In this document: positions 178-32,970 of the stretch, piece after piece
How positions within the stretch are numbered: the stretch's first letter is position 1
Layout: every line of letters starts with the position of its first letter
IMG/VR virus record: IMGVR_UViG_3300037110_000082
Coordinates: 1-35,978 of that record
DNA length: 35,978 bases
Direction: 5' to 3' (one strand)
Source of the DNA: a virus
Made by a program: the position numbers and the translations under genes
The notes under the pieces: model-generated
What the model was told of the DNA's origin: nothing
Databases searched by the model: none
The model's input: the letters and a program-made list of their open reading frames with translations, nothing else

Positions 178-220
178 GTGCAGTGTCACAGCGCCGTCAG
201 GCGCTCCTAAACCAAAGTCG
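178..220 (+). repeat. Reverse hairpin arm upstream of small terminase
   Basis: Stem AGCGCC (190-195) and GGCGCT (200-205) with loop GTCA, preceded by a GTGTCAC-type tail and followed by CCTAAACCAAAGTCG. It ends about 11 nt before the ATG at 232. The A-T closing pair replaces the G-C pair of other copies, which is a compensatory change. Confidence 0.75.
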
Positions 221-231
221 TAAGCCCTTCC

Positions 232-846
232 ATGTCCAAGACCCGCTCAGCAGGCCAGAAGTGTGGTGCCGAGAAGCACAACGGCAAAGGCAGGTGCACG
301 CTCCCGGCAGGCTGGGGCACCGCACACGTCGGGGCCGGGACGTGCCGTAAGCACGCGGGTAACGCCCCTGAGGCGGTCCGCGCCGGGCTGGTCCAGCTGG
401 CTCGCAGGGATGCGCTGATGGGCCCGCTCTCGATCGAGCCCCAAGACGCGATCCTGCAGTGCATTCAGATCAGCGCCGGGGAGGTCGCTTACGCCTCCGA
501 GCAGATCGCACTCTTGCAGGCAGCCGAGTTCGTCGGCGAGCCGCGCCACACGCTTGTCCGCAAGACCGACGGCGCCACGGTCACGGAGATCCGCCAGGAC
601 CCGCCGGCGCTGCACGTGTGGATCCAGGTTCGCCAGCAGGCGATGGACCGGCTCGTCGCGTTCAGCTTCGCGGCGATCCGCGCGAAGATCGCAGAGCAGC
701 GCGTCCAGCTCGCACGCGACCAGGGCCTGCTTCTCTACCAGGCGGTCAGCGCCGTCCTGAGGGCGGTGGGCGTCGCGGATAGCCCGGAGGTGGGCGCGAT
801 TGTCCGCAGAGAGCTCACCTTGGTTGCCGGCCAGTCCGCAGCTTGA
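232..846 (+). CDS. terS: Putative terminase small subunit
   Basis: The 204-residue protein begins with a cysteine/histidine cluster: C11 in KCGAEKH, C22 in GRCTLPAGWGT, and C38 and H41 in GTCRKHAG. The CG-x-K…C-x2-PAGWGT…C-x2-H pattern is typical of small terminase proteins in actinophages, where this subunit recognises packaging sites. The rest is mostly helical, including a long amphipathic helix around 130-175. It lies immediately upstream of the large terminase and overlaps its start by 47 nt, which supports the role. The ATG at 232 is taken because it immediately precedes the metal-binding motif and follows the hairpin arm. Function rests on the motif and gene order, not on a search. Confidence 0.75.
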   Translation: MSKTRSAGQKCGAEKHNGKGRCTLPAGWGTAHVGAGTCRKHAGNAPEAVRAGLVQLARRDALMGPLSIEPQDAILQCIQISAGEVAYASEQIALLQAAEFVGEPRHTLVRKTDGATVTEIRQDPPALHVWIQVRQQAMDRLVAFSFAAIRAKIAEQRVQLARDQGLLLYQAVSAVLRAVGVADSPEVGAIVRRELTLVAGQSAA

Positions 847-1705
847 CCCGTTCCTGGTCGCCGCCGACCTGTTCGACCCGCCCGCCGCCGCCGCCGGGCG
901 CTGGTACTGCGACGTGGAGGGCTGCGACGGGCATCCGCACGCGGGGATGCACTGGTGCGAGCACCCGCTCGATTCGGGCGCGCACACCTGGGAGTGCCGC
1001 CACCAGCGCGCAGACCAGCGGATCCCGCCCGAGTTCGCCAGCGGCAAGGCGTCGGACCTGCTGATCATGGCGGGGCGCGGGTGGGGGAAGACCAGGGTCG
1101 CGGCGGAGTGGATCGTCGGCCAGGCGCGCAGCGTCCCGGTGTCGAACTGGGCGGTGATCGCGCCGACCTTGGACGACGTGCGCGACACGTGCTTCGAGGG
1201 CGAGTCGGGGATCCTGCCGGCGCTCGACTGGGACCGCGAGGACGACCGCTACAACAAGACCGCGCTCCGGGTGCGGCTGGACAACGGGTCGGTGATCCGC
1301 TCCTACAGCGCCGAGACGCCCCGCAAGTCCCGCGGCCCGAACCTGTTCGGCGCGTGGCTGGAGGAGATCGCGCAGTGGAAGTCCCGGACGATGTGGGACA
1401 ACCTGTTCCCGGCGATCCGCCGCGGGCTGGCGCAGACGATCGCGACGACCACGCCGGCGCCGGTGCCGTTGGTGCTGGAGTTCGTCAAGCGCAAGGACGG
1501 GTCGGTGGTGATCGTCCGCGGCTCGACGTTCGACAACGCCGAGAACCTCGCGGCGTCGAAGATCGCCGCGTTGAAGGTCCGCTGGGAGGGCACTCGCCAC
1601 GCCCGCCAGGAGCTTTATGGCGAGCTGCTGCAGGACGTCCCCGGCGCGCTGTGGTCCCCTAGCGTGATCGAGGCGACCCGCGGGCTGCTGCTGGAGGATC
1701 AATGA
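800..1705 (+). CDS. terL: Terminase large subunit, ATPase half
   Basis: A 301-residue packaging ATPase that would power DNA translocation into the prohead. Walker A is AGRGWGKT at 91-98, Walker B is LFGAWLEE at 182-189 ending in the catalytic acids, and the coupling motif ATTTP is at 215-219. A TTG start at 800 is chosen because GGAGG (786-790) lies 9 nt upstream. The N-terminus carries a Cys/His-rich stretch (C37, C42, H45, H47, C53, H55, C66, H68), a possible zinc ribbon, before the ATPase core. The ORF stops where the nuclease domain should begin. That domain is in the next ORF, in another frame, overlapping by ATGA. So the enzyme is either two polypeptides or joined by a -1 frameshift. 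Confidence 0.92.
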   Translation: MSAESSPWLPASPQLDPFLVAADLFDPPAAAAGRWYCDVEGCDGHPHAGMHWCEHPLDSGAHTWECRHQRADQRIPPEFASGKASDLLIMAGRGWGKTRVAAEWIVGQARSVPVSNWAVIAPTLDDVRDTCFEGESGILPALDWDREDDRYNKTALRVRLDNGSVIRSYSAETPRKSRGPNLFGAWLEEIAQWKSRTMWDNLFPAIRRGLAQTIATTTPAPVPLVLEFVKRKDGSVVIVRGSTFDNAENLAASKIAALKVRWEGTRHARQELYGELLQDVPGALWSPSVIEATRGLLLEDQ

Positions 1706-2442
1706 GCGTCAACGTCAGGCGCAGCGACCTGCGGCGCGTCGTAACAGCAATTGATCCGGCCGCAACCTCCTCGGAGGACGCGGACGACACCGGGATCGTG
1801 ACCGTCGCGCGCGGCCCCTGCCAGCCCGAGACGTGCAAGCTGTCCGTCCGCTGCCCCGGCCACGGGTACGTCTTGGCGGACGACACCTGCCACCTCGGGC
1901 CGATCGGGTGGGCGACCGTCGCCGTGCAGGCGTTCGACACCTGGCAGGCCGATCGCATCGTGGCTGAGGTCAACAACGGCGGCGAGATGGTCGGGGTGAC
2001 GGTGAGGACCGTGCGGCCGGGGATCCCGTATGCGACCGTGTACGCCACACGCGGCAAGCGGGTGCGCGCCGAGCCGATCTCAGCGCTGTACGAGCAGGGG
2101 CGGATCCATCACCTCGGGACGTTCCCCGACCTGGAAGCCGAGCAGTCGACCTGGACGCAAGACTCCAAGTGGTCGCCCAACCGCGTCGACGCGCTCGTGT
2201 GGGGGCTTACCTACCTGGGCTTGGTGGGTGACCAGGGCGCGGCGTTCATGGCCGCCTACCAGGACGAGATCGAGCACCGCAAGCCGGCGCTCGACCCGCG
2301 GCTGGCGGCACTGCCACGCTTGGGCGCCGGGGCTGACACGCCACCGCAGAGCACGCTGCGCCCTCACTGCAAGCACCGCTTCTTTACCGGCACTTGCGTG
2401 TACTGCGGGGGTGCCGACCCGAAGCTACAGGCTTTGGTTTAG
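1702..2442 (+). CDS. Terminase large subunit, RNase H-like nuclease half
   Basis: A 246-residue protein matching the C-terminal nuclease of large terminases, which cuts the concatemer. Likely metal-binding acids are D18 (VTAIDPA), E89 (VAEVNN) and D163 (NRVDALVW), the usual spacing for the RNase H fold. The ATG overlaps the TGA of the ATPase ORF, so translation is probably coupled. Together the two halves total about 547 residues, close to a normal single-chain large terminase. The C-terminus adds an unusual small Cys/His knuckle (C223, H225, C232, C235). The stop codon TAG lies inside the following hairpin arm. Confidence 0.9.
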   Translation: MSVNVRRSDLRRVVTAIDPAATSSEDADDTGIVTVARGPCQPETCKLSVRCPGHGYVLADDTCHLGPIGWATVAVQAFDTWQADRIVAEVNNGGEMVGVTVRTVRPGIPYATVYATRGKRVRAEPISALYEQGRIHHLGTFPDLEAEQSTWTQDSKWSPNRVDALVWGLTYLGLVGDQGAAFMAAYQDEIEHRKPALDPRLAALPRLGAGADTPPQSTLRPHCKHRFFTGTCVYCGGADPKLQALV

Positions 2443-2550
2443 GGGCCGGCTGACGCCGACCCTTGACACTGCACAGTCACGCTGGCCAGTGTCGTTGGTG
2501 GCCTGTTGCTGCGCACCTGGCTGTTGCGGTTGCCTAAACCAAGTCGTTAC
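2433..2550 (+). repeat. Forward hairpin arm overlapping terminase stop, with degenerate reverse arm
   Basis: The forward arm (2433-2480) reads GGCTTTGGTTTAGGGGCC, then a stem-loop closing in GCCGACCC and the tail TTGACACTGCACAGTC. The terminase TAG is part of the arm. A degenerate reverse arm (about 2518-2550, ending CCTAAACCAAGTCGTTAC) lies just before the portal ribosome site. Confidence 0.7.
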
Positions 2551-2569
2551 CGGCAGGAAAGAAGGCACG

Positions 2570-5530
2570 TTGTCCAACCTGATCCTTCCGTCCTCCGTGC
2601 AACGCCACCGAGACGCCGCAGAGCGCGTGTCCAAGCAGCAGCGGATCGACGACTTCGTGGCGGTAGCGAAGAGCTTCATGGGCCCGGGCGCGGCGCAGAT
2701 GGGCGGCATGTCGGGCGCGGTCGGTGGTGCGGCGCCGGGCTCGCCCATGAAGACGTCGTGGACCTCGAACTTGGGTAACGCCGCGCTGCTGCAACGCGCG
2801 ACCCAGACCTACAGCCAGCAGCACAACGTGCCCGCGGCGGAGATCGAGCAGGCATTGGCCGACCAGGGGTTGAGCTGGTCAGCTCCGTTCGCGCCGGGCC
2901 GGCCGCTGACCCCGTTCGCGGGCTACCGCGAGCCCGCCCGCACCCGCGACTTTCAGGTCGGCGAGAACGTCCAGGTCACCCCGCGCGCGGGCCGCGTCAG
3001 CTTCGCGACGCTCAAAGCGCTGTACGCCGCCTGGGACGTCCCGCAGCTGTGTGTGCAGCATCTGATCAACGACGTCCGCAGCCTCGATAGCAGCTGGCTG
3101 CCGGCGAAGGGCGTCAAGACCGACGTCAGCGCCGACATCGACGCGGCGGAGGCGTTCTTTGCGTTGCCCGACCGCCGCCGGCCGTTCAAAGCCTGGCTCG
3201 GGATGTACCTCAACGACGTGTTTCGCTGGGACGCCGGCACGATCTACGTGCGGCGCAACAACGGCGGGGACCCGATCGCCGTGGAGGTCACCGACGGCAC
3301 CACGATCATCCCGCTCGCCGACTACTTCGGCCGGATCCCGATGGACGAGACCGACCCCGACGCCGACCCCGGCGAGGAGCTCGACGGCGAGCTGGTCCCG
3401 GCATACGTGCAGGCGATCATGGGGATGCCGTGGACGTGGCTGACGGCCGAGGACCTGATCTACCAGCCGCTGAACCCGCAGTCAGAGAGCCAGTACGGGC
3501 TCGCGCCGCTCGAGAAGATCCTTTTGACCGGGAACACCGACGTCCGCTTCCAGCTGCACTTCCTCGAGTACTTCACCGACGGCAGCCTGCCGGCGGGGCT
3601 GATGGAAGCGCCGCCCGACATGTCCGATCCGGCGCAGCTGCGCGAATGGCAGGACACCTGGGACGCGCTGATGATCGGCGACCAGGCGATGCTGCGCCGC
3701 ATCCGCTGGGTGCCGTCAGGGTCGAAGTTCGACGCCGTCAAAAACAGCGACTTCGACGAGAAGTTCCCGCTGTACCTGATGCGCCGCTGCTGCGCCGCCT
3801 ACGGCGTCACACCGTCGGACATCGGCTTCACCGACCAGGTCAACAAAGCCACCGGCGACACGCAGATCGACGTGCAGTTCCGCGTCGGCACCCGGCCGGC
3901 GCTCAGGCACGTCGAGGACATCCTCAGCCTGTTCGCGCAGCGCGACCTCGGCCTGCGGGTGAAGCTGCAGATCGACGATGGCCGCGAGACAGAGGACCGC
4001 GTCGCGACCGCCCAGGCCCACTCGATCTACATCCAGGCCGGCGTCGAGTCCCCCGATGAGGTGCGGGATGAGATCGGCAAGCCGACCGACAAGACGCAGG
4101 CCGTCAGCCGGTTCATCCAGACGCGGCAGGGGATCACGATGCTCGAGACGCTGCTCGGGCAGACCAAGAACCCGATCGACCCGGAGACGTTCGCGCCGTC
4201 CGGCAAGGTCGAGTACGCCGAGCCCGCGCCCGCGCCGGTGCCGCCGCCGGGCAAGCCGCCCGCGCCGGGCGAGCCGGCGGCAGCGGGAGCAACCGAGCAG
4301 GCGGCCGCGTCCGACGCGACGCCCGCCGGCGAGAAGCCCGCGATCCCGGGCGGGCAGGACGCCGCCAACACGAACACTTCCCCCGTCGCGAAGGCCGAGA
4401 CGGCGGGGATCACCGCTCAGAGCGGCATCCAGGGCTCCGACCTGATCGGCCGCGACGACGAGGACGAGGACGAGGACGACGACGAGAACGAGCTCGACGA
4501 GGTCCGCAAGGCGCTGATCGACGTCAGCCTGCGCCGCTGGAAAGCGAACGCCCGCAACCGCTTGCGCAAGGGCCAGGCGCCACGGCGGTTCGTCGACCCT
4601 TCCCTGCCCGCCGCCGTCCACGATCAGGTGTGGGCAAAGCTCGAGCACGCCGCCAGCAGAGAGCAGGTGGACGCAGCCTTCGCGGTGCCCCCAAAAGGTG
4701 AGGCCCGCAAGGCGGGCGCGCCGACCCTCGCCGGCTTCCACAAGCACGCGGATGAGATCGTCGAGCACTACGCGCCGCTGATCGCTGACGAGCTCGCGAA
4801 GCTGTGGAGCGCCGCGACGATCCGCCAGGCGTTCGACGCCGCCGGCGCCGCCACCAAGGAAGCGGTCCCGAAGCCGCCGCCGCCCGAGCCGCCCGCCGAG
4901 ACGCCGGGCGCGCCGGCGCTCAGGGTGCTGCAGGGCGGCAGGGGAGACCTCGAGGCGCTCAAGGCGCTCATCACCGAGCTCCAGGGGGACGCCGCCTTGC
5001 AGGGCGCGCACGAGGCCGCACACGCCGCCGGCGCCACGATCGCCGCGAGCCTGCAGGGCGTGACCGAGCAGCTCCCCGACTCGTATTGGTCGACGTGGGA
5101 GCCGGGATTCGGTGCCGCCGCTGCGAAGGACGCCGCCGGCGGGCTCAAGGAGCTGCTCGACCAGGCGGACATCACCCTTCAGGGCTTGACCGACAGCGCG
5201 ATCGACCGGATCGGCAACGCGCTCGCCGACGGGCTCGCGGCCGGGGACAGCTTCGAGACCACCGCCAAGGCCGTGCAAGAGGTCGTCTCCAGCCCGGCCC
5301 GCGCGCAGTTGATCGCGAACACCGAGTACGGCCGCGCGATGTCTGCGGCGAGCATGGACACCTACCGCGAGAGCGGGGTGCAGGAGAAGGACTGGCTTTG
5401 CGAGGATGACGCCTGCGATCTGTGCCAGGCGAATGCCGCGGCGTCACCGCTGGGGATCGACGAGGACTGGCCGAGTGGCGAGTACCCGTGCCACCCAGGG
5501 GATAGGTGTGCTGTAGCACCTCACGTTTGA
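2570..5530 (+). CDS. Portal protein fused to MuF-like head morphogenesis domain
   Basis: About 986 residues from a TTG at 2570, chosen because AGGAAAGAAGG lies just upstream and the next codons begin the portal-like sequence. Residues 1 to about 540 resemble siphophage portals, the dodecameric ring through which DNA passes: the stretch with WLTAEDLIYQPLNPQ, QYGLAPLEKIL and YGVTPSDIGF is characteristic. A Pro/Ala-rich linker (about 550-600) and a very acidic run (about 630-645) follow. The C-terminal 90 residues, with IANTEYGRAMS and paired cysteines (CEDDACDLC, YPCHPGDRC), fit the Phage_Mu_F minor head domain. The open frame extends upstream to 2030, but that part overlaps the terminase and is noncoding in this frame. 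Confidence 0.9.
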   Translation: MSNLILPSSVQRHRDAAERVSKQQRIDDFVAVAKSFMGPGAAQMGGMSGAVGGAAPGSPMKTSWTSNLGNAALLQRATQTYSQQHNVPAAEIEQALADQGLSWSAPFAPGRPLTPFAGYREPARTRDFQVGENVQVTPRAGRVSFATLKALYAAWDVPQLCVQHLINDVRSLDSSWLPAKGVKTDVSADIDAAEAFFALPDRRRPFKAWLGMYLNDVFRWDAGTIYVRRNNGGDPIAVEVTDGTTIIPLADYFGRIPMDETDPDADPGEELDGELVPAYVQAIMGMPWTWLTAEDLIYQPLNPQSESQYGLAPLEKILLTGNTDVRFQLHFLEYFTDGSLPAGLMEAPPDMSDPAQLREWQDTWDALMIGDQAMLRRIRWVPSGSKFDAVKNSDFDEKFPLYLMRRCCAAYGVTPSDIGFTDQVNKATGDTQIDVQFRVGTRPALRHVEDILSLFAQRDLGLRVKLQIDDGRETEDRVATAQAHSIYIQAGVESPDEVRDEIGKPTDKTQAVSRFIQTRQGITMLETLLGQTKNPIDPETFAPSGKVEYAEPAPAPVPPPGKPPAPGEPAAAGATEQAAASDATPAGEKPAIPGGQDAANTNTSPVAKAETAGITAQSGIQGSDLIGRDDEDEDEDDDENELDEVRKALIDVSLRRWKANARNRLRKGQAPRRFVDPSLPAAVHDQVWAKLEHAASREQVDAAFAVPPKGEARKAGAPTLAGFHKHADEIVEHYAPLIADELAKLWSAATIRQAFDAAGAATKEAVPKPPPPEPPAETPGAPALRVLQGGRGDLEALKALITELQGDAALQGAHEAAHAAGATIAASLQGVTEQLPDSYWSTWEPGFGAAAAKDAAGGLKELLDQADITLQGLTDSAIDRIGNALADGLAAGDSFETTAKAVQEVVSSPARAQLIANTEYGRAMSAASMDTYRESGVQEKDWLCEDDACDLCQANAAASPLGIDEDWPSGEYPCHPGDRCAVAPHV

Positions 5531-5534
5531 CACC

Positions 5535-5590
5535 GCTTGGGTTAGGCGCGGCTAGCGCCGCTGTGTCCCGGATCGCGGGACGGGACGGCG
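5535..5590 (+). repeat. Forward hairpin arm after portal, second tail type
   Basis: CTTGGGTTA (5535-5543) is followed by stem GGCGC (5544-5548) and GCGCC (5554-5558), then the GTGTCCCGGATCGCGGGAC tail, which is itself palindromic. The tail is the reverse complement of the right half of the complete elements at 10938 and 21244. It lies between convergent genes and may end transcription, but there is no T-tract. No gene is seen in 5531-5699. Confidence 0.65.
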
Positions 5591-5699
5591 CATGGGTGCG
5601 AACAACGGCGGGCCTTGAAGGTGTGGGGCCGGGGGTGTCGTGCTAGACCGTGGCGGGGGTGACGCGGTGTCGCGGTTACGCCGCAGGAGTCACTGCGAG

Positions 5700-6140
5700 T
5701 TACAGGCTGAGGATGACGGCGGCGCCCGCGATGCAGGCGATGTGGAACACCTGATCGGTCCAGAAGCGAACCTCGGTGCCGACGTCGTACAGCGGGCGCT
5801 CGCGGTGCTCGTGGTGCCCTGGGGCATCCTCGGCCGGCTCGCGGTCCATCCGTGACGCGAATGCAAACCAGGGCTCAGGCTGCGTCTGGCGAACCGTCCG
5901 CGACCACCACTGCACCGGCTTGCGCGTGTCGATGATCAGGTGCGCGAGCGCCAACGGCGCGGCGACCCGACCGAACACGGGCGCGAGCAGCGCTCCGTGG
6001 ATCCCGGCGTGAACGTAGCCGGCGGGGTGGCGCAGGTCAGCCTTGTGGCGGGCCATCCAATCGTTCTGAAGCGGCCAGTCGGCCACCAGGTGCGCGACGA
6101 GGCCCCAGACCATCCGGTCGGTCGCAGTCCGATCATCCAC
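5700..6140 (-). CDS. DUF3307-like membrane protein (leftward)
   Basis: A 146-residue protein from a GTG start at 6140, preceded on its own strand by AATGAGG. The order LVAHLVADWPLQNDWMA, then HAGIHGALL, LALAHLIIDTRKP and WTDQVFHI fits the DUF3307 family, small multi-pass membrane proteins of unknown function in bacteria and phages. Three hydrophobic segments are visible, near residues 10-27, 44-70 and 128-146. It runs against the head genes and lies between portal and protease, so it is probably a moron, an added gene with its own expression. Its role is unknown; an envelope-directed function is an inference from its membrane nature. Confidence 0.75.
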   Translation of the reverse strand: MDDRTATDRMVWGLVAHLVADWPLQNDWMARHKADLRHPAGYVHAGIHGALLAPVFGRVAAPLALAHLIIDTRKPVQWWSRTVRQTQPEPWFAFASRMDREPAEDAPGHHEHRERPLYDVGTEVRFWTDQVFHIACIAGAAVILSL

Positions 6141-6180
6141 AGCCTCATTCTGCCGTGACCTAACCCAGAGCCCTACCAGG

Positions 6181-10915: not shown

Positions 10916-10931
10916 GTCAACAGGGTAACTG

Positions 10932-11066
10932 CTGTGGTTAAGGGCCGCTTCGCGACCGTGACACGGCACAGTCCCGGCGCCGCTGTTCGAGCGCATCCCG
11001 CTGCACCCGATCCGGCCCGCGATCCGGGACACGGCGCGCTTGCGCGCCCCTAACCCAAAGCGTTAC
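10932..11066 (+). repeat. Complete paired-arm element, copy 1
   Basis: The 116 bases 10938-11053 are identical to 21244-21359. The left arm is TTAAGGGCCGCTTCGCGACC plus the GTGACACGGCACAGTC tail. The centre holds GATCCGGCCCGCGATCC. The right arm is GGCGCGCTTGCGCGCC followed by CCTAACCCAAAGCG. The ends are inverted (GGTTA against TAACC). It fills the gap between two rightward genes, ending about 27 nt before the GTG at 11093. Confidence 0.85.
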
Positions 11067-14624: not shown

Positions 14625-14907
14625 CGCCAATCCCAACACGTACAGCATCGGCGATCTCGTGCAGCTGACCGCGAGCTTTCAGACCGTGCCGGAGGGCGCG
14701 CCGATCGACCCGAGCGCCGTGCTGATCACCGTCTGCGACCCCGCTTTGAACGAGACGACGCCGGCCGTGGAGAACCCGTCGGTGGGTGCTTTCACCGCCC
14801 TGGTCTCACCGACGATCGCGGGTAAGTGGCGCTGGCGGGCGACCGGGACCGGCGCGGCGCAGGCGTCGGCGGACGGGCTGTTCCTGGTAGCGGAGCAGAC
14901 GTTCTAG
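14617..14907 (+). CDS. Small Ig-like structural protein
   Basis: A 96-residue protein from ATG 14617, overlapping the end of the repeat protein by 8 nt. The pattern YSIGDLVQLTASFQT, then PSAVLITVCDP, GAFTALVSPTIAGKWRWRATG and ADGLFLV is an immunoglobulin-like strand order. It matches a small actinophage family found next to head-tail connector genes. It probably decorates or joins the neck, but the exact role is not known. Confidence 0.7.
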   Translation: MPNANPNTYSIGDLVQLTASFQTVPEGAPIDPSAVLITVCDPALNETTPAVENPSVGAFTALVSPTIAGKWRWRATGTGAAQASADGLFLVAEQTF

Positions 14908-14915
14908 GCGGCTAC

Positions 14916-14960
14916 TGATCAGGGCCGCGCAAGCGCGACCGTGCGGCGGATCGCGCCCTC
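14916..14960 (+). repeat. Forward hairpin arm after 14907
   Basis: GGCCGCGCAAGCGCGACC forms a CGCG stem with a CAAG loop and the same C-A mismatch seen in other forward arms. It is followed by GTGCGGCGGATCGCGCCCTC. The usual TTTGGGTTA is not recognisable here, so this is a degenerate copy. Confidence 0.55.
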
Positions 14961-15086: not shown

Positions 15087-16073
15087 GTGAGCGTCACCCC
15101 GTTCGCGCCCGCGCCGTTTGACACCCCGATCGTCGCGCCCTCGGCGACCACGCTCAGCCGCCGCCAGCCGTACATCAGCCCGTCTGAGCTGGCGGCCGCC
15201 CCGACCGCGCTGGCGCTGAAGAACCTCGTGCCGGGCGGCAGCGCCGGCCAGCAGGCGAGCGAGCTCTACAACGTCCTCCTGCGAGCGTCTGACTGGGTTG
15301 ACCTGATCTGCTTCCACGGCCCCGACGGCACCCTCGCCGCGTCCCCCACGATCCAGTCGGGGTGGGTCACCCCCAAGCACGGGCGCCTGGCGCTGATCTG
15401 CAACTGCAAGCCGATCCTGGCGGTCACCGGCCTGGCGCTCGGCGCCGGGCCGCAGGCCCTGACGGACATCGGCGACGTCGCGGCGCAGCGGATCAGCATC
15501 GAGACGTCGATCATCGCCCTGAACGGCCCCGCGCCGATCCCGAGCGGCGGACCGTCGCCGGTGCCGGTCGGATGGGGCAGCTCGCGCGGCTGGCGCCAGT
15601 ACGCGGTGTGGTCCTACATCGCCGGCTACCCGCACATGGTGCTCGCCGCCCCGAGCATCGCGGGCGCGGAGTCGCTGACGGTGGCGGGCAGCGTCCCCGG
15701 TCAGCCCGAGCCCTACGGCGTGTACCCCGGAACGCAGCTGACGGTCCGTGACGCGCTCGGCGGCGTCGAGGTCGCGGTCGTGCAGTCTGTCGCGGGGGAT
15801 GTGCTCAGCCTCGGCTCGCCTTTGCAGTTCCCGCACAAGGTCCCCGTCTTCCCGGACTTCGTGTACGTGACCGCGCTGCCGCACGGGGTCGAGCAGGCGA
15901 CGATCTCGCTCGCGTCGTGCCTGATCAAGCTCCGCGGCACGCGGGCGGCGGTGATGCCCTCCGCGGGGCAGGCAGCGACCAAGACCGCTCTGATCTCGTC
16001 CGGGGGCTTGGAGGACTACGAAGTAGCTGTGGACCTGCTGAAGCCGTTCACGACGGTGTACCGGGCAAGCTGA
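15087..16073 (+). CDS. Putative head-tail connector protein with C-terminal beta domain
   Basis: A 328-residue protein from GTG 15087, chosen because GGGAGGAT lies just upstream. An open frame to 14961 would cross the terminator hairpin. The N-terminal helices (YISPSELAAAP, LYNVLLRASDWVDLICF) resemble gp6-like connector proteins that sit below the portal. A second part (residues about 190-290: YAVWSYIAGYPHMVLA, GAESLTVAG, VYPGTQLTVRD) looks like an added beta domain. A similar strand pattern is inserted in the tail tube protein. Two further cysteines lie in ICNCKP. Assignment rests on family resemblance and position. Confidence 0.65.
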   Translation: MSVTPFAPAPFDTPIVAPSATTLSRRQPYISPSELAAAPTALALKNLVPGGSAGQQASELYNVLLRASDWVDLICFHGPDGTLAASPTIQSGWVTPKHGRLALICNCKPILAVTGLALGAGPQALTDIGDVAAQRISIETSIIALNGPAPIPSGGPSPVPVGWGSSRGWRQYAVWSYIAGYPHMVLAAPSIAGAESLTVAGSVPGQPEPYGVYPGTQLTVRDALGGVEVAVVQSVAGDVLSLGSPLQFPHKVPVFPDFVYVTALPHGVEQATISLASCLIKLRGTRAAVMPSAGQAATKTALISSGGLEDYEVAVDLLKPFTTVYRAS

Positions 16074-16075
16074 AC

Positions 16076-16240
16076 TGCTTTGGTTTATGGGCGCTACGCG
16101 CCGTGACACTGCACAATCCCGGTGCTTTAGGCAGTTGTAGGCTTGACCGCCAGGTGCGCAGCAACAGCCGACCAGCGGGCGGCGGGGCGGGGACTGTGCC
16201 TTGTCACGGGCGCGGTAGCGCCCCATAAGCCAAGTCGTTG
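16076..16240 (+). repeat. Forward and reverse hairpin arms between connector and Lys-rich gene
   Basis: The forward arm (16076-16122) is CTTTGGTTTATGGGCGC, then TAC, GCGCC and GTGACACTGCACAATC. The reverse arm (16193-16240) is GTGCCTTGTCAC, stem GGGCGC and GCGCCC with loop GGTA, then CATAAGCCAAGTCG. The 70 nt between them show no gene. The outer ends are complementary, so this is a diverged complete element. Confidence 0.8.
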
Positions 16241-16252
16241 AAGGGAGACGCC

Positions 16253-17076: not shown

Positions 17077-17088
17077 GCCATGGATCAT

Positions 17089-17134
17089 GGGCTTGGGTTA
17101 TGGGCCGCTTCGCGACCGTGACAAGGCACAATCC
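17089..17134 (+). repeat. Forward hairpin arm after tail terminator
   Basis: GCTTGGGTTATGGGCCGC, then TTC and GCGACC, then GTGACAAGGCACAATCCCG. It ends 6 nt before the GTG of the next gene, so here a forward arm serves as the 5' leader. Confidence 0.8.
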
Positions 17135-17139
17135 CGTCT

Positions 17140-17607
17140 GTGGCTGACGAGCGCGAGCAGAATACGCAGGCCGCGCCCTGGCCCGGTGATCTGGAGGTGC
17201 TCGTCGCCCAGCTTTCCTACCGGCCGGGCTGGCGCTTCTCACTCCAGCACGAGGACCGCGGCCAGGGATCCGAGGGCCTCACGTTCACGGTCGTCTCCCT
17301 CGGTTATGACACCCACCACGTCGACCGGGGCGAGACCTACCGGGTCGCGCACTACTTTCCCGTGCCGCCAGCCGCCTACAACCGCCAGTCGTGGGCCCGG
17401 TGGCTGCTTGATCGCTTGATCGAGGTCGAGACCCACGAGTGCTGCGAATACTTCCGGGTCGCTGGCTTGCAGCCGTTCGCACCGAATCACGGCCCCGGCT
17501 GGGATCCCTACGGCGTTCGCGAGCTGAATAGCGCCGAGCACGCCGAGACCACTTTCCGCGGCGAGCGCCGCTCGGCGTCTCAGGCTGCCGCTCCGCTCGT
17601 CCCTTAG
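17140..17607 (+). CDS. Conserved phage protein of unknown function
   Basis: A 155-residue protein from GTG 17140. The centre (LSYRPGWRFSLQHEDRG, then VVSLGYDTHH, YRVAHYFPVPPAAYN, SWARWLLDRLIEVETHE and FAPNHGPGWDPY) is a pattern I recognise from a conserved hypothetical family in actinophages and soil metagenome phages. No function is known for it. The many aromatic and His residues and a fixed 'HGPG-x-DPY' end suggest a compact fold. No clear ribosome site is visible, and the leader is the hairpin arm. Confidence 0.75.
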   Translation: MADEREQNTQAAPWPGDLEVLVAQLSYRPGWRFSLQHEDRGQGSEGLTFTVVSLGYDTHHVDRGETYRVAHYFPVPPAAYNRQSWARWLLDRLIEVETHECCEYFRVAGLQPFAPNHGPGWDPYGVRELNSAEHAETTFRGERRSASQAAAPLVP

Positions 17608-17635
17608 CCGTTCGGCCCGCTGACCACGCTGCGAG

Positions 17636-17683
17636 GGCGCGATCCGCCACACGGCGCCGCTAGGCGCCCTTAACCCAAAGCTG
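17636..17683 (+). repeat. Reverse hairpin arm before 17694
   Basis: GATCCGCCACAC tail, stem GGCGCC (17653-17658), loop GCTA, GGCGCC (17663-17668), then CTTAACCCAAAG. It ends about 11 nt before the ATG. Confidence 0.8.
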
Positions 17684-17693
17684 GGAGACCGTC

Positions 17694-18026
17694 ATGCCGA
17701 GATACCGCAACACCGGCGAGCGCCGCGTCTGGCCGACGCTGACCGACCAGGCCACCGGCCGCACGCTCGAGCTGGCAGCGGGCCAAGAGGGCGAGCTGGC
17801 GGGCGAGGTCGATGACCCGTACCTGGACCGCATCGACGATCCGGGCACACAGCCGCTGGGCAGCGTTCCGTTCACGGTCAGCACTTCCGATTCTGCGCCC
17901 GAGCGGGAGGAGAAGCCCCCCGTCCCCGCCGCCGAGCCCGTCGACGAGCATGCCGCGCGCGAGCAGGCGCTGCACGCCGAGATCGCCGCCGCCCAGGCCG
18001 AGCTGGACGCCGACGCCAAGGGCTAA
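17694..18026 (+). CDS. Small structural-region protein with coiled-coil end
   Basis: A 110-residue protein starting MPRYRNTGERRVWPTL, with a GGGAG ribosome site. The N-terminal half is a short beta domain of a type common in small phage head and tail genes (PRYRNTG…RTLELAAGQEGEL). The second half is Pro/Glu-rich and then helical (HAAREQALHAEIAAAQAEL). Its TAA stop is part of the following hairpin arm. Function is unknown. Confidence 0.7.
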   Translation: MPRYRNTGERRVWPTLTDQATGRTLELAAGQEGELAGEVDDPYLDRIDDPGTQPLGSVPFTVSTSDSAPEREEKPPVPAAEPVDEHAAREQALHAEIAAAQAELDADAKG

Positions 18027-18061
18027 GGGCCGGCTACGCCGACCGTGACAAGTCAACGGCA
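18021..18061 (+). repeat. Forward hairpin arm, left copy flanking the methyltransferase
   Basis: About 39 bases here recur at 18969-19007 with two differences, in the same orientation. Stem GGCCGGC and GCCGACC with the C-A mismatch, then GTGACAAGTCAACGG. The two copies bracket the methyltransferase gene as direct repeats. Confidence 0.85.
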
Positions 18062-18154
18062 ACCGTCCCGTGTCACCACGGTGAGTTGGGACGCGTCCCG
18101 CGGCGATCGCCAGGCACGCGTCCCGTTGGTCGTCCCGTGGATCCCGGCAGCTGC

Positions 18155-18970
18155 TCAGCGGGACGCGTCCCGGCCGACGTCGGGCCCGCGGGATGTGTAG
18201 AGCTCCCATGCGCGCCCGATCGCGCCCGAGCCCGGGTAGAGGTCGTCGAGCGTGTCGCCTGCCGTCGCGCCCAGCATCGAGAACATCCAGACCGCGAACT
18301 CGGGCGGCTTCATGCCGACCAGCGCGCCCGGGTAGCTGTCATAGCGACCGCGGTAGTCCAGGTGGTCGATGACCTCCTGCGGGCGGTCGGTGCTCAGTTC
18401 CCGCCCGCCGTAGACGAGCAGCGGCTCCCAGGCGCTGAGCGGCCGTCGGCTGCGCGTCGGGCGGACCTGCCTGCGCCACACGCAGACGCGGATCCCGGCG
18501 GGACACATCCGCAGGACCTGTGGGACGGACTCGGCCGACGTCGAGAGCGCCCAGCCGTCCGGCCAGCCGGCGATCAGCCGCTCGATGAGCTCGGCGTGGT
18601 CCACCTCCTGGCGCTCGACGTAGTAGCCCGATTTGCCAGGGTAGGGAGGGTCGGCGTAGGCGAAACGTCCCAGGGATCCCGCGAGATCTCGGCGGGACGG
18701 CTCGGCAGCTGCGCGGGACGCGTCCCGCAGGCCTGGCCTCCTGGAGGACGAGACGGCTTGAGCGAACCGCCACGCTCGCTTGCGGCAGACGACGCCGCAA
18801 TAGATCGCGTCCCGCCTGCAGCCGGGACGGATCGGTCCCGCGCACCAGGTGCACATCCGTCCCGCCGGGATCCCGTCGACGCGGAACGGGGCCCGCGCGG
18901 CCGCCGGGGAGGCGTCCCGCTCGGATCCAAGCGTCATCACCACGGGACGCGTCGCGCCTCGATCGTGCAA
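18155..18970 (-). CDS. DNA methyltransferase with N-terminal zinc finger (leftward)
   Basis: A 271-residue protein. DPPY at 107-110 (YADPPYPG) is the catalytic motif of amino-methyltransferases. The SAM-binding motif near 242-251 (DDLYPGSGAIG) follows it, so the order is catalytic motif first (beta-type). An N-terminal Cys cluster (C40, C43, C51, C58, C62) resembles zinc fingers on phage site-specific methylases. It could protect phage DNA from host restriction. The TTG at 18970 gives the longest form; ATG at 18937 is an alternative. The gene is flanked by near-identical hairpin arms and is rich in CGGGACG/CGTCCCG words, which encode its recurring RDAS motifs. Confidence 0.8.
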   Translation of the reverse strand: MHDRGATRPVVMTLGSERDASPAAARAPFRVDGIPAGRMCTWCAGPIRPGCRRDAIYCGVVCRKRAWRFAQAVSSSRRPGLRDASRAAAEPSRRDLAGSLGRFAYADPPYPGKSGYYVERQEVDHAELIERLIAGWPDGWALSTSAESVPQVLRMCPAGIRVCVWRRQVRPTRSRRPLSAWEPLLVYGGRELSTDRPQEVIDHLDYRGRYDSYPGALVGMKPPEFAVWMFSMLGATAGDTLDDLYPGSGAIGRAWELYTSRGPDVGRDASR

Positions 18971-19010
18971 GGGCTAAGGGCCGGCTGCGCCGACCGTGAC
19001 ACGTCAACGG
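18968..19010 (+). repeat. Forward hairpin arm, right copy flanking the methyltransferase
   Basis: Near-identical to 18021-18061 with two substitutions (A to G in the loop, A to C in the tail). It overlaps the TTG start of the methyltransferase on the other strand. This is what one would expect of a recombination scar around an inserted cassette. Confidence 0.85.
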
Positions 19011-19048
19011 GCAGGCGCCAACCGACCCCCTGAACCTGAGCCCCAGCC

Positions 19049-19192
19049 TCAGCGCCTCCCGCCTGAGTGAGGCCAGGGGTCCCAGCCGGCAAGGCCGGGA
19101 TCGCGCTGCACGTCTCGCTCAACGCCGGGATCCTGCGCCATCAGCGCCAGGATCGCGGCGACAAACCGCGCGAACACCTCGCGGGGCGCCAT
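19049..19192 (-). CDS. Small ORF downstream of winged-helix gene
   Basis: A 47-residue ORF from ATG 19192, starting 4 nt after the stop of the winged-helix gene, so it is probably co-transcribed and coupled. It begins with a hydrophobic helix (MAPREVFARFVAAILALMAQ) and ends in a Trp/Pro/Gly-rich tail. Codon use is like its neighbours. No family is recognised. Confidence 0.5.
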   Translation of the reverse strand: MAPREVFARFVAAILALMAQDPGVERDVQRDPGLAGWDPWPHSGGRR

Positions 19193-19196
19193 CGGC

Positions 19197-19721
19197 TCAG
19201 CCGACGGCAGCGGCGGGCTCCGCGATCACCCACCTGGTGTTGGCGCGCTCGCCCTTGCGGACCAGCAGCCCCTTCGCCTCGAGCTCCTTGAAGCGCCGCA
19301 GGATCGTCTCCGACGTTGAGCCGAGCGCCCTGGCGAGCGCGGGGGACTGGTCCCCGATGCCGGCGCGGACGGCTTCGAGCACCGCATCCGCTGACGGCGC
19401 GCCGGTTGTGGGCTTGGCGGCTGTGGTCGGGTACTTGGTGGCACTCGGGCGCGTGCGCTTGCGGCTGGCGGTCCGCTCGCCGTTGGTCGGCTTCATCGCG
19501 GTCACCGTGCCGCCCGAGCCGCCGCCGCCATTGCCGCCGCTCGAGCCGATCAGCGCGCGGCGCGTCTCGGTCAGCATCGCCAGCTCGGTCTTGTAGGTCT
19601 CCTTGAGCCCGGCGATCTCGCCGTCGACATGCGCCAGCAGCTGCGCGCGCCCGTCGGCGGCGGCCTGCGCGATCTGGGAGAACTGCGGGTACTGCACCAC
19701 GGGGACTGTCTGCGTCGCCAC
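19197..19721 (-). CDS. Putative winged-helix DNA-binding protein (leftward)
   Basis: A 174-residue protein from GTG 19721, preceded on its strand by GAAAGGA. Residues about 1-58 are a helix or coiled coil (AQLLAHVDGEIAGLKETYK). A Gly-rich linker (GGNGGGGSGG) and a basic Thr/Lys/Pro segment follow. Residues 111-167 fit a winged helix: DAVLEAVRAGIGDQSPALA, then STSETILRRFKELEAKGLL and a wing (VRKGERANTRWVI). It could regulate the morons or dimerise through its N-terminus. It lies in a leftward group inside the rightward tail region. The DNA target is unknown. Confidence 0.65.
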   Translation of the reverse strand: MATQTVPVVQYPQFSQIAQAAADGRAQLLAHVDGEIAGLKETYKTELAMLTETRRALIGSSGGNGGGGSGGTVTAMKPTNGERTASRKRTRPSATKYPTTAAKPTTGAPSADAVLEAVRAGIGDQSPALARALGSTSETILRRFKELEAKGLLVRKGERANTRWVIAEPAAAVG

Positions 19722-19764
19722 GGTTACGTCCTTTCACTAGGCAGACATCGGTTGGCGGGTAAGG

Positions 19765-19959
19765 CTACACCCGAGCGTGAGAGTCAGTCTCGGCAGGCTC
19801 CGTCACCCTGGCGACCTGCAGCGCGTTAGCCACCCACAGCCGCAGCGCCGCCAGCCGCTCGAGCACCGGGAGCGGCGCGCCGTCAAGCGCCCGGGCGGCG
19901 AGCGTCAGCGCGTCGCGCGCTTGGCGCAGCTCCGTCAAGTCGGGTCCGGCGCCTGCCAT
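19765..19959 (-). CDS. Small helical ORF, first gene of leftward group
   Basis: A 64-residue ORF from ATG 19959, ending 43 nt before the winged-helix gene. Sequence such as ELRQARDALTLAARALDGA and VLERLAALRLWVANALQVA suggests two or three amphipathic helices. The frame stays open upstream through the hairpin arm, but the ATG at 19959 is the first beyond the arm. Unknown function. Confidence 0.45.
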   Translation of the reverse strand: MAGAGPDLTELRQARDALTLAARALDGAPLPVLERLAALRLWVANALQVARVTEPAETDSHARV

Positions 19960-19970
19960 CTGCCACCCGT

Positions 19971-20017
19971 GATTGTGCCTTGTCACGGCGCCGCCAGGCG
20001 CCCATAAACCAAAGCAG
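19971..20017 (+). repeat. Reverse hairpin arm before tail tube gene
   Basis: GATTGTGCCTTGTCAC tail, stem GGCGCC (19987-19992), loop GCCA, GGCGCC (19997-20002), CATAAACCAAAGCAG. It separates the divergent ORF at 19959 from the tube gene at 20039, so it lies in both leaders. Confidence 0.8.
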
Positions 20018-20038
20018 TTTCGAGAAGGAGTGAAGACG

Positions 20039-21247
20039 ATGCCGATCGGAGCGTTCTCCGCCATCCCCACGCCGGAAACGACGATCGGGATCGCCAAGGA
20101 AACCATTCGCGGGACACCCGTCCCGCCGACCTACTTCCTGCCGGTCTCCTCGCCGGCGTATAAGCCCAACCGCCAGTACCTGCCCGACGAATCCCTGCAA
20201 GGCAGCATGGTCGGGATCTACGACGAGATCCCCGGCCTCAGGTACGACGCGCACGGCTGGGACCAGCACCTCTACCTGGACTCCTTCCCGCTGCTGGTGC
20301 AGGGGGTGCTCGGCGCGCCCGACACGGTCACCGTCGCGCCCGCCTCGACCGCCCTGACCGCCCCGGCGGCCGCGGGCGCCACAACGATCTCGACGACCGC
20401 CACGATCCCGCCGGGGTCGCTGGTCACGATCGCCTCCGGAAGCCCGGGCACGATCGAGACCCACCAGACCACGCTCGTCACCGGCGCGGGCCCGTACACG
20501 GTCACGCTCGCGTTCCCGCTGATCTACGCCCAAGCGTCCGGCGCGTCGGTGACCGGGCTGACCAAGCACGCCTTCAGCCTGCTGAACAACAGCCCGAGCA
20601 CCGGCAACCAGCCGCCCTCGTTCACGATCAGCGACTACGGGGGAGAGACCAACTGGCGCCAGCTGACCGCCGCGCAGCTCGACGGCATCAACCTGCAAGG
20701 CTCCCCGGAGGCGCTCCCGAAGGCGGCGCTGACGTGGTTCGCGAACCCCGCCACCACGCCCGGCGCCAACCCCGTCGCGTCCTACACGACCGCGGAGTCA
20801 CCGCCCGGGTGGACCGCGCAGCTGCTGATCGGCGGCGCCGCGATCGCCTACGTCGTCAGCTGGGAGTGGGACCTCAAGCGCGGCGTCAAGCCGATCCCCG
20901 CGATCACGGGGACCCAGCAGTACTGGCAGTACTTCGCCTCGGTGCTGGCCGCCACCGCGAAGTTCACGGTACTCGAGGACATGGGCCAGACGTGGCTCAC
21001 GGCGTTTGAGTCGGGCGCGACCGAGACCGTCGATTTGACCGTGTACGACATCCAGAACGGGTGGGCGATCAACCTGCACTCCTCCAAGGCGAAGATCACG
21101 AGCGGGAGCTTGGACCGCTCCAAGGAATGGCTGGAGGTGCCGCTCGAGCTGCAGCTGCTGCCCACAGCCACAGATGCGCTCGCCGCCGGCGGGGGCGTCT
21201 CGCCGTGCGTGGTGACGGTCGGGAACGCCGTGGTTGCCACGTATTAA
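20039..21247 (+). CDS. Major tail tube protein
   Basis: A 402-residue protein from ATG 20039 with GAAGGAG upstream. The N-terminus (IGIAKETIRGTPVPPTYF, LPDESLQGSMVGIYDEIPG) and the C-terminus (WLTAFESGATETVDLTVYD, SLDRSKEWLEVPLELQLL) fit the phage tube fold that stacks as hexamers to form the tail. Residues about 98-172 (ALTAPAAAGATTISTTA, GAGPYTVTLAFPL) are a beta domain that seems inserted. A related pattern occurs in the connector gene at 15087. Position before the tail chaperone and tape measure supports the call. The TAA stop is shared with the second complete hairpin element. Confidence 0.85.
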   Translation: MPIGAFSAIPTPETTIGIAKETIRGTPVPPTYFLPVSSPAYKPNRQYLPDESLQGSMVGIYDEIPGLRYDAHGWDQHLYLDSFPLLVQGVLGAPDTVTVAPASTALTAPAAAGATTISTTATIPPGSLVTIASGSPGTIETHQTTLVTGAGPYTVTLAFPLIYAQASGASVTGLTKHAFSLLNNSPSTGNQPPSFTISDYGGETNWRQLTAAQLDGINLQGSPEALPKAALTWFANPATTPGANPVASYTTAESPPGWTAQLLIGGAAIAYVVSWEWDLKRGVKPIPAITGTQQYWQYFASVLAATAKFTVLEDMGQTWLTAFESGATETVDLTVYDIQNGWAINLHSSKAKITSGSLDRSKEWLEVPLELQLLPTATDALAAGGGVSPCVVTVGNAVVATY

Positions 21248-21370
21248 GGGCCGCTTCGCGACCGTGACACGGCACAGTCCCGGCGCCGCTGTTCGAGCGC
21301 ATCCCGCTGCACCCGATCCGGCCCGCGATCCGGGACACGGCGCGCTTGCGCGCCCCTAAACCAAAGCAGT
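21244..21370 (+). repeat. Complete paired-arm element, copy 2
   Basis: Bases 21244-21359 are identical to 10938-11053. The element begins inside the tail tube stop codon and ends at CCTAAACCAAAGCAG, about 16 nt before the next ATG. Confidence 0.9.
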
Positions 21371-21385
21371 AACCAGGAGGTCAGC

Positions 21386-25600: not shown

Positions 25601-25621
25601 CAAGCATCTCGCGTCAAAAGC

Positions 25622-25752
25622 TTTCGGGTCTAGGGGCCGCTGCGCGACCCGTGACAAGGCACCGTCCCGGCGCGGTGCTTCGAGCGCATCCCGCTTGGCA
25701 CGATCCGGCCCGCGATCCGGGACACGGCGCGCTTGCGCGCCCCTAACCCTTG
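25622..25752 (+). repeat. Complete paired-arm element, diverged copy 3
   Basis: It begins TTCGGGTCTAGGGGCCGCTG. The central GATCCGGCCCGCGATCC part and the GGCGCGCTTGCGCGCC right arm are the same as in copies 1 and 2. The left arm and inner left segment have several changes, including a compensating extra G-C at the stem base. It follows the tape measure gene. Confidence 0.85.
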
Positions 25753-25769
25753 CCTGTAAAGGAAAGCCG

Positions 25770-25803: not shown

Positions 25804-26706
25804 GTGCCGGCCTGGCCGCTACCGCCCGGCAAGCCGAGCATCTACGCCTCGATGCCCGGCGGCGTCACCGCACCCGCACTGGCGAGCTGGCAGGCCAGCT
25901 ACAACGGCGTCCTGATGGGTGCCGGCACCCCGATCGGCGTGCTCAAGTTCCACGGGCTCGGGGGGCTGCCGACGGTCGGCTCCCACGACGTGCCGTGGCC
26001 GCGGGACACCGGCGAGAGCCCGGGCGTCGACGCGATGGCCGGCCGTGACCCGGGCGCTGACCTGGTGATCACCGCCAACATCTACGCGCAGATGGTCGCG
26101 CTCGGCGGCGCGCTCGCCGCCGGCGGCGCGCTCGAGAACCCATTTTGGTTTCAGTTGCCTGGGCTGCCGGCGCTGTGTTCGATGTGCCGCCCGCGCACCC
26201 GCGCCGACGAGTGGGACGCGAACGTCGCCTCCGCCGGGATGTGGACGCCGACGCTCAGCTTCCACGCGACCGACCCGCGGCTGTATGGCCAGGCGCAGAC
26301 GGCATACACCGCGGCGGCGTCGGTCCCGGCGGCGCAGCTGACGATCGCCAACGCCGGCAACACCGAGACCCGCCCGGTGCTGATCCTCAACGGGCCGCTC
26401 AGCGCCCCGAGCATCCAGTTCGGCGCGGCCGCCAACCCGATCCTGATCGCGTTCGCCGCGGGGACCAACATCGCCGGCGGGGACACCGTCGTGATCGACC
26501 TCTCCACCCCGCACACCGTCACCTACTGGACCGGCGGGGTCGGCTCGGGCGGCGCGGTCTCGGACGCGTACAACGTGCTCGACCAGGCGACCACGTCATG
26601 GCCGACGCTGCCGCCTGGCGCGACCACCCTCAGCTTCGGCGCGAGCCAGGCGTCACTGGACGCCGCGCAGTTCGGCGTGTGGTGGTCAGACGCTTACATG
26701 CTGTGA
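25804..26706 (+). CDS. Distal tail protein (Dit-like)
   Basis: A 300-residue protein directly after the tape measure. N-terminal GVLMGAGTPIGVLKFHGLGG, then WPRDTGESPGVDAMAGRDPG and LVITANIYAQM resemble the siphovirus distal tail N-domain that docks on the tube end. The second half (LTIANAGNTETRPVLILNG, GDTVVIDLST) is the galectin-like or TIM-related beta part seen in actinophage Dit proteins ('aGt-x-x-RPvi-x-v-xG'). GTG is the only start with a fitting upstream site. Confidence comes from order plus this motif. Confidence 0.8.
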   Translation: MPAWPLPPGKPSIYASMPGGVTAPALASWQASYNGVLMGAGTPIGVLKFHGLGGLPTVGSHDVPWPRDTGESPGVDAMAGRDPGADLVITANIYAQMVALGGALAAGGALENPFWFQLPGLPALCSMCRPRTRADEWDANVASAGMWTPTLSFHATDPRLYGQAQTAYTAAASVPAAQLTIANAGNTETRPVLILNGPLSAPSIQFGAAANPILIAFAAGTNIAGGDTVVIDLSTPHTVTYWTGGVGSGGAVSDAYNVLDQATTSWPTLPPGATTLSFGASQASLDAAQFGVWWSDAYML

Positions 26707-26708
26707 GG

Positions 26709-26845
26709 CGCTTCGGGTTATGGGCGCCTAGCGGCGCCTTTTGGCGGATCGCGCCCTCGCATCGTGAGCTGAGGGCTCCGAGGCGGCGATCCCGCACACG
26801 GCCCGCGCAAGCGGGTCCTGACCCACACCCGAAGCCACACCACGC
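26709..26845 (+). repeat. Complete paired-arm element with perfect terminal inverted repeat
   Basis: The ends GCTTCGGGT and ACCCGAAGC are perfectly inverted. Left hairpin GGCGCC-TAGC-GGCGCC; right hairpin GGCCCGC-GCAA-GCGGGTC with a GNRA loop and one G-T pair. The interior differs from copies 1-3. It fills the gap between two tail genes. Confidence 0.8.
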
Positions 26846-29091: not shown

Positions 29092-29125
29092 CGCCCGCCG
29101 TCCCCGCTTCACCCCGCTCCGAGGC

Positions 29126-29168
29126 GGCGATCCCGCACACGGCGCGCTTGCGCGCCCCTAAACCAAAC
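29126..29168 (+). repeat. Reverse hairpin arm before 29189
   Basis: CGATCCCGCACAC tail, stem GGCGCGCTTGCGCGCC, then CCTAAACCAAAC. It ends about 20 nt upstream of the ATG. Confidence 0.8.
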
Positions 29169-29188
29169 CCCAGGAGCCATCCTCCCTG

Positions 29189-30282: not shown

Positions 30283-30298
30283 GCGCTGCCAGCACTGC

Positions 30299-30415
30299 TG
30301 TTCAGGGGCGCGCAGGCGCGCCGTGTGCGGGATCGCCGCCTAGGAACGGCGCTGCGGTTCGAGGGCGCGATCCGCCAGAAGACGCCGGTAGGCGTCCTAT
30401 AAACCACACCAGCGG
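30299..30415 (+). repeat. Forward and reverse hairpin arms before endolysin
   Basis: Left hairpin GGCGCG-CAGG-CGCGCC with the GTGTGCGGGATCG tail. Right hairpin GACGCC (30381-30386), loop GGTA, GGCGTC (30391-30396), then CTATAAACCACACC. The A-T pair in the right stem is another compensatory variant. The AAGGAG leader of the endolysin lies beyond. Confidence 0.75.
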
Positions 30416-32368: not shown

Positions 32369-32545
32369 ATGGTGAGCCTCGACCGCGGGCTCGAGGAGGC
32401 CCTGGCGCTGCTCAATGACCTCGAGCACGACGAGGACGACGAGCGAGGCAAGCGCCGCGCCGAGCTCGCGATCATGGCCGTGGAGCGCGCCCGCGAGCTG
32501 CTCGGCGATCATGCAGGCGAGGTCCTGCACCATGAGGACTGGTAG
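32369..32545 (+). CDS. Small acidic helical protein
   Basis: A 58-residue ORF starting 3 nt after the holin-like stop. It is helical and heptad-like with an acidic centre (ALALLNDLEHDEDDERGKRR) and ends VLHHEDW. Good codon use and tight spacing support it as real. No family is recognised. Confidence 0.6.
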   Translation: MVSLDRGLEEALALLNDLEHDEDDERGKRRAELAIMAVERARELLGDHAGEVLHHEDW

Positions 32546-32549
32546 GCGC

Positions 32550-32605
32550 AGGGTTCGGGTTAAGGGCCCGCTTGCGCGGACCTTGACGAGGCACCGTCCC
32601 GGGCG
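32550..32605 (+). repeat. Forward hairpin arm after 32545
   Basis: GGTTCGGGTTAAGGGCCCGC, then TTGC and GCGGACC, then TTGACGAGGCACCGTCCCGG. The stem differs from other copies but still pairs. The TTGACG here is not followed by a -10 at suitable distance. Confidence 0.75.
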
Positions 32606-32661
32606 CGGTTAGGCGAGCGGTTCCGCCCGGTCGTTGCCGCGAAGGGCGGTAGGCTCAGTCG

Positions 32662-32886
32662 ATGACCCAGAGCCTTCGCGACGAGATCGAGGCGCTCCGC
32701 CGGCAGCTCGCCGAGCGTGACGAGACGATCCGCGTGCTGAGCGTCGCGCTCGCGCGCGAGCAAGCGGACCATCCGGGGCTGCGCGTCGTCGTCCAGGACG
32801 GTGTGCTGCGTCCAGCGTGGCCGGGGAACACCTGGGGCTCGCGCGATGACCCGATCGTCATCCCGCAGCCGTTCACCACGATCTAG
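32662..32886 (+). CDS. Small coiled-coil protein
   Basis: A 74-residue protein from ATG 32662. The first 35 residues form a coiled coil (LRDEIEALRRQLAERDETIR). The remainder is a short beta/Pro-rich end (PAWPGNTWGSRDDPIVIPQP). Last rightward gene of the late region. Function unknown. The upstream GGGCGGTAGGCTCAG offers a weak ribosome site. Confidence 0.6.
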   Translation: MTQSLRDEIEALRRQLAERDETIRVLSVALAREQADHPGLRVVVQDGVLRPAWPGNTWGSRDDPIVIPQPFTTI

Positions 32887-32930
32887 GCGGCAGCGACCGC
32901 CCGCAACCGCTCGCTCGCAGCTCCGTGATG

Positions 32931-32970
32931 GTGCCGTGTCACGGCGCCGCCAGGCGCCCATAACCAGCAG
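32931..32970 (+). repeat. Reverse hairpin arm, last copy
   Basis: GGTGCCGTGTCAC tail, stem GGCGCC-GCCA-GGCGCC, then CATAACCAGCAG. No rightward gene starts nearby. It lies between the convergent late genes and the leftward operon. The rest of 32887-33106 has no gene; an imperfect hairpin near 33058-33095 could end the leftward operon. Confidence 0.7.

Follow-up and report, generated by a model that had tools for sequence, protein, structure and literature searches.

A family of REP/BIME-like, putatively mobile hairpin elements between the genes of a siphovirus-like phage

REP and REPIN elements have been described from bacterial chromosomes. The nucleases of REPs recognize hairpins folded from single-stranded DNA, contacting the loop or irregularities in the stem, and in one system a G in the loop is critical (PMC8266576). 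The CGTC super-family of REPs features a CGTC or TGTC tag adjoining an 8–9 bp stem whose first pairs are AT, together with a CCA tail (PMC3733652). DNA mini-hairpins that have GNA or GNNA loops and two or more G-C pairs are extraordinarily stable (PMC4686876). Among phages, actinobacteriophages carry ultra-small mobile elements (MPMEs); MPME1 measures 439 bp, and its copy in Hope is located within a gene and comes with a 6-bp addition (PMC3029335). Cluster K phages harbor SAS and ESAS repeats, and related phages keep their ESAS at the same gene families (PMC3203893). Within the titles and abstracts of the open literature covered by a non-exhaustive search, no report placed a REP/REPIN-type family inside a phage genome.

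Here, we describe such a candidate family in the IMG/VR virus record IMGVR_UViG_3300037110_000082. The window, i.e., the whole stretch of DNA analyzed, is the entire record of 35,978 bp, and the genome is probably incomplete. It belongs to a siphovirus-like tailed phage with head and tail genes for terminase, portal-MuF, protease, tail tube, and tape measure; the product of 8657–10141 aligns with annotated major capsid proteins (43% identity to Arthrobacter phage Mufasa8). The large terminase subunit (843–2442) is encoded in two reading frames, an ATPase half and a nuclease half overlapping by 4 nt. It is also split in three relatives (L101, L106, L116), with 825 bp between the halves in L106, and is a single gene in Mufasa8. 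A strong hairpin 3' of the capsid gene (10142–10247) also occurs at that junction in L101, L106, L111, G016, and G024; its loop often has GACCTCC(T), the complement of the next gene's AGGAGGT ribosome-binding site, and it is a candidate for a conserved translational switch. Other repeats include the upstream regions and first codons of two minus-strand genes with signal-peptide-like starts (22934–23051 and 30165–30282, 83% identical), an adjacent minus-strand gene pair with related tandem repeats at 33107–33735 (families D10 and D18), and, in the relative L114, a closely packed array of degenerate short repeats of the GCCTNGCC type (5698–5982).

The window contains 24 hairpin arms (13 left, 11 right), or about 0.67 arms per kb; E. 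coli K12, for comparison, has about 600 REPs (PMC8266576). In right orientation, an arm consists of an outer block ending in CAC (type A, GRYTGTGCCNTGTCACGG; type B, GCGATCCSSSACACGG), a GC hairpin with a stem of 5–8 bp, and the tip C(N)TAAMCCAAAGC-3'. The original prediction had counted about 20 sites flanked by TTTGG(G/T)TTA; the family is real, with a larger count, and the flank is a partial description of it. TTTGGKTTA with at most one mismatch occurs at 17 sites against 0.77 expected, a number reached in none of 100 shuffles, and the exact tip is present in only 8 of the 24 arms. CAC-hairpin-C(N)TAAMCC is therefore the better signature: CAC stands on the 5' side in 20 of 24 aligned arms, with C(N)TAAMCC on the 3' side. 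Tips are degenerate in the arms at 18021, 21244, and 25622, and two tips (2535–2543 and 6161–6169) have no hairpin. The covariance search that had been suggested as a check, built from 11 arms, returned 20 window sites at E<0.05, every one an arm and none at a random position within a gene. Likewise, an arm HMM run over 2.92 Mb of collected loci recovered exactly the 24 window arms (E<0.08), with zero matches in the other loci. The observation is thus confirmed, and is stronger than first stated.

Arms mostly alternate left to right, forming units of about 110–170 bp or flanking one or two genes, and the ends of a unit may be A/A, A/B, or B/B. Seven bare units were delimited with the HMM: 2425..2545 (left arm A at 2425–2478 and the worn right tip at 2535–2543, the latter from a tip scan), 10925..11066 (A-B, core 10938–11061), 16071..16242 (A-A, flanked by g17 and a small basic gene), 21234..21374 (A-B), 25619..25761 (A-B), 26705..26836 (B-B, degenerate right arm), and 30291..30414 (B-B). 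Three units, also from the HMM, bear genes. The first (17085..17685) encloses a phrog_1540 gene (17140–17607) between left arm A (17085–17135) and right arm B (17636–17685). The second (18012..20022) comprises left arm A (18012–18055), another left arm A (18963–19008), and right arm A (19971–20022), with two minus-strand genes, one with a DPPY methylase-like motif (18155–18970) and one encoding a winged helix (19197–19721). The third (32549..32971) holds a small gene (32662–32886) between left arm A (32549–32599) and right arm A (32927–32971). At 5529..6170, a left arm B found by the HMM (5529–5577) precedes a minus-strand DUF3307 gene (5700–6140) and the worn right tip at 6161–6169. Three arms are solitary: a plus-strand right arm of type A at 174..224 (hairpin 190–205; HMM E 6.5e-8), a minus-strand left arm of type B with a degenerate tip at 14904..14957 (HMM E 0.016, and the covariance model), and a plus-strand right arm of type B at 29125..29170 (HMM E 3.5e-6).

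All 24 hairpins lie wholly between genes. As originally described, the left arms follow stop codons, their hairpins beginning 1–34 nt past the upstream gene end in 12 of 13 cases. Right arms, first placed about 10–40 nt before start codons, have hairpins that finish 26–63 nt ahead of the next start in 9 of 11. Three left arms contain a stop codon, as had been noticed (TAG at 2440–2442; 18024–18026; TAA at 21245–21247), so an insertion at a gene border can be harmless. Given a coding density of 89% and the presumed loss of copies within genes, the "boundary specific" placement, correct as an observation, is better explained by a gene-dense genome that tolerates insertions only between its genes.

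Comparison with relatives points to insertion. Junction lengths were compared with those of the orthologous junctions in as many as 17 related loci, whose capsid proteins are 61–69% identical, with lower identity elsewhere. Arm-bearing junctions span 127–2012 nt in the window versus mostly -20 to about 60 nt, free of arms, in the relatives. The junction between terC and portal (unit 2425) measures 127 nt against -20 to 56 nt, with one relative at 1849 nt; g17-g19 (unit 16071) measures 481 nt against -8 to 2 nt, or about 120 nt with a small basic gene, two relatives having longer inserts and the relatives lacking arms there. Lengths of 617, 2012, 203, and 156 nt at g19-g20 (unit 17085), g20-g21 (unit 18012), TMP-g26 (unit 25619), and g26-g27 (unit 26705) correspond to 9–29, -4 to 3, -1 to 3, and -17 to 0 nt, respectively. 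At g21-g22 (unit 21234), 138 nt compare with 18–62 nt in most relatives, and two relatives hold other genes. Junctions that are arm-free in the window are of similar length throughout, at 4 versus 1–19 nt for protease-scaffold (all relatives but one) and 66 versus 20–92 nt for scaffold-capsid. Because the matching junctions of relatives mostly abut and lack arms, the units are insertions rather than ancestral signals. The region 5529..6170 is a place where relatives hold other variable DNA, and it is therefore only a possible insertion. No homologues of the genes enclosed in the 17085, 18012, and 32549 units were found in 14 relatives tested. Genes inserted at such junctions in relatives come without arms, and arms are therefore no general requirement for gene acquisition. 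In a single case, the relative G014 reads GCTTTGGGTA at the 17.1 kb junction, a possible target motif.

Two units further show recent copying, since 10938–11061 and 21244–21367 differ at 1 of 124 positions and unrelated DNA lies outside them (7–13 identities per 30-base bin, the random level). A third unit is 77% identical. In addition, the left arm at 18017 has a copy at 18968 (43 bases, 95% identical).

The hairpins themselves carry a strand-specific signal. Among 17 distinct hairpins, several stem positions vary and pairing is kept. Every loop is of one of two kinds, either C-GNA-G or C-GNNA-G (n = 14) or G-CYTG-C (n = 3), and such loops occur on either strand in 9 of 132 other GC hairpins of the window (Fisher 3e-16, a value that overstates independence because copies are related by descent, a concern lessened by loops that differ in length and class from copy to copy). 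Most tetraloops of the family (GCCA, GTCA, GCTA, GGTA) are not of the RNA-stable GNRA type. In all asymmetric hairpins the G...A loop is on the strand ending TAAMCCAAAGC, the tip strand. A G.T wobble is present in 9 of 13 left and 0 of 11 right arms, always on that same strand. The hairpin is thus under selection, on one strand, and is DNA-like in appearance.

We favor, at a probability of about 0.58, the explanation that this phage was colonized by one family of non-autonomous mobile elements resembling REPINs and BIMEs, which an HUH/Y1-type hairpin nuclease would move in trans. A unit would consist of two single-strand hairpin sites in inverse orientation. A hairpin-recognizing single-strand nuclease or transposase of the HUH/Y1 type, as in REP/REPIN and IS200/IS605, would recognize the folded strand of each arm; it may come from the host or from phage sequence missing from this record, and would copy the unit to a new place. 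Insertions within genes would be lost, leaving only junction copies, and accessory genes between arms may be carried along or the units may serve as harmless landing pads. Mobility is inferred here from one genome, with no filled and empty pair at near-identical sequence. The Y1 transposase (PF01797) was absent from the window and 10 related records in a search that included positive controls, the genome being incomplete.

The likeness to REP/BIME/REPIN elements mobilized by TnpA-REP (RAYT), recognized in the original prediction, extends to short intergenic hairpins, 20–50 nt palindromes in inverse left-right pairs, to the many copies with mixed end types, to conserved sequence outside the stem, and to the absence of coding capacity. 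Unlike those elements, the arms have CAC before and TAAMCCAAAGC after the hairpin and reside in a phage, and a RAYT was not found. The alignment of 24 arms shows no GTAG (or close variant) at the hairpin foot as in the GTAG super-family; nor do the arms match the CGTC super-family, having a G-C foot and 5–8 bp stems, with TGTC only in type A arms and two bases away. Because the tag differs, we say that the family works like REP, not that it is a member. IS200/IS605 ends likewise have subterminal single-strand hairpins, and in line with them no target duplication was found here with the ends assumed; they differ in that the left and right hairpins here are on opposite strands, and no TnpA or TnpB genes were found. 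Less likely, at perhaps one chance in five in our judgment, is a phage-adapted class of single-strand hairpin transposon with its own tag, CAC...TAAMCCAAAGC, that would carry accessory genes from junction to junction and build the mosaic by cassettes rather than chance recombination.

A classical MITE, similar to Correia or ERIC, whose double-stranded ends are recognized by a DDE transposase, is an unlikely alternative. Units of 110–170 bp, within the usual range of about 100–200 bp, with terminal inverted repeats, an intergenic location, and absence from relatives would all fit such an element. Yet at 10 units with assumed ends the longest shared flank words are 3–5 nt, equal to random pairs, and the relatives are too distant to fix exact ends, targets, or duplications. 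That no target-site duplication above chance was found counts, weakly, for HUH single-strand transposition. Moreover, double-strand recognition leaves the compensatory stem changes and the one-sided loop and wobble types unexplained, and local one-strand hairpins with DNA-type loops set the arms apart from Correia, ERIC, and other MITEs.

Slightly less probable again are recombination boundary sequences, repeats that phage annealing recombination would spread and exchange and at which modules would be swapped, with no transposase involved. An ERF-family single-strand annealing protein, cut by the contig end, is encoded on the same contig (35265..35978, plus strand; E 4.8e-14), accessory genes are bordered by arms (17085–17685, 18012–20022, 32549–32971), and the mixed A/A, A/B, and B/B ends suggest shuffling. 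Recombination alone, however, explains neither the first arrival at many abutting junctions nor the preserved hairpins, and relatives gain junction genes without arms too. The ERF protein may instead be a helper of recombination or exchange between units, and modular recombination, one of the roles first suggested, is possible as a consequence since accessory genes sit between arms.

The other suggested role, in mRNA processing or translation, did not hold up, and RNA-level elements (terminators, RNase processing sites, or mRNA-stability hairpins acquired as regulatory parts) appear improbable. They would suit a location right after stops and before starts, and REPs and MITEs elsewhere can alter mRNA stability (PMC10969869). 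But the tip strand of the left arms, which carries the DNA-type loops, is opposite to the mRNA of the structural genes, and left arms are predicted to fold at a mean of -7.1 kcal/mol on the mRNA strand versus -10.4 kcal/mol on the other. A role as mRNA 3' structure predicts the opposite and is disfavored. In the window, none of the arm hairpins overlaps a terminator with a T-tract, as the original prediction had also noted; the flank is TAAMCC or its complement, and the same operon in relatives runs without arms. Intergenic promoter repeats like those of halovirus HF2, which have promoter activity (PMC8707807), can be largely dismissed: repeats do lie upstream of genes and type A arms read TTGTCA-17-CATAAA, but a promoter scan of the window found none at arms, type B arms lack a -35-like block, left arms would fire antisense, and HF2 repeats hold their positions in relatives while these arms do not.

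Two phage systems merit comparison with the preferred REPIN-like reading. MPMEs share the ultra-small size, but the units here are 110–170 bp, non-coding, and present at about a dozen loci of one genome. SAS/ESAS are likewise inverted repeats that occur many times in a single phage, between genes and close to gene starts; the arms lack the 13-bp SAS and, unlike ESAS, are not conserved in position, the junctions being arm-free in the relatives compared. Integron attC sites, N4 hairpin promoters, and Helitron/IS91 ends appear not to fit in layout or required partners.

Searches for the arms and the host covered several further collections. Arm patterns gave single chance matches or none in IMG/VR; in a scan of genome contigs, none of the matches listed was an arm by HMM. 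Thirty-six capsid-homologue contigs and 26 full viral records gave weak scattered scores only, the best (G014) proving on reading to have abutting genes and no arm. Among 396 and 395 genomes reached via actinobacterial loci, no host was found under strict filters, and the host may be outside this set; one marginal match (G472) scored only 2 bits with the arm HMM. The capsid protein was absent from the 396 genomes, full-unit blastn against phages and plasmids returned nothing relevant, and no arm was found in Mufasa8.

In summary, a GNA or GNNA loop on one strand offers a simple sequence test for telling whether the hairpins of a repeat are of the single-strand DNA or the RNA kind. Such remodeling of a virus genome, at about a dozen junctions, by miniature elements known from bacterial chromosomes would be rare. 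If the units are mobile, they would provide a concrete, testable route by which accessory genes reach the structural operons of phages precisely at gene borders, and REP-type movement, the mechanism of which is poorly understood, would become easier to observe through the fast phage life cycle.
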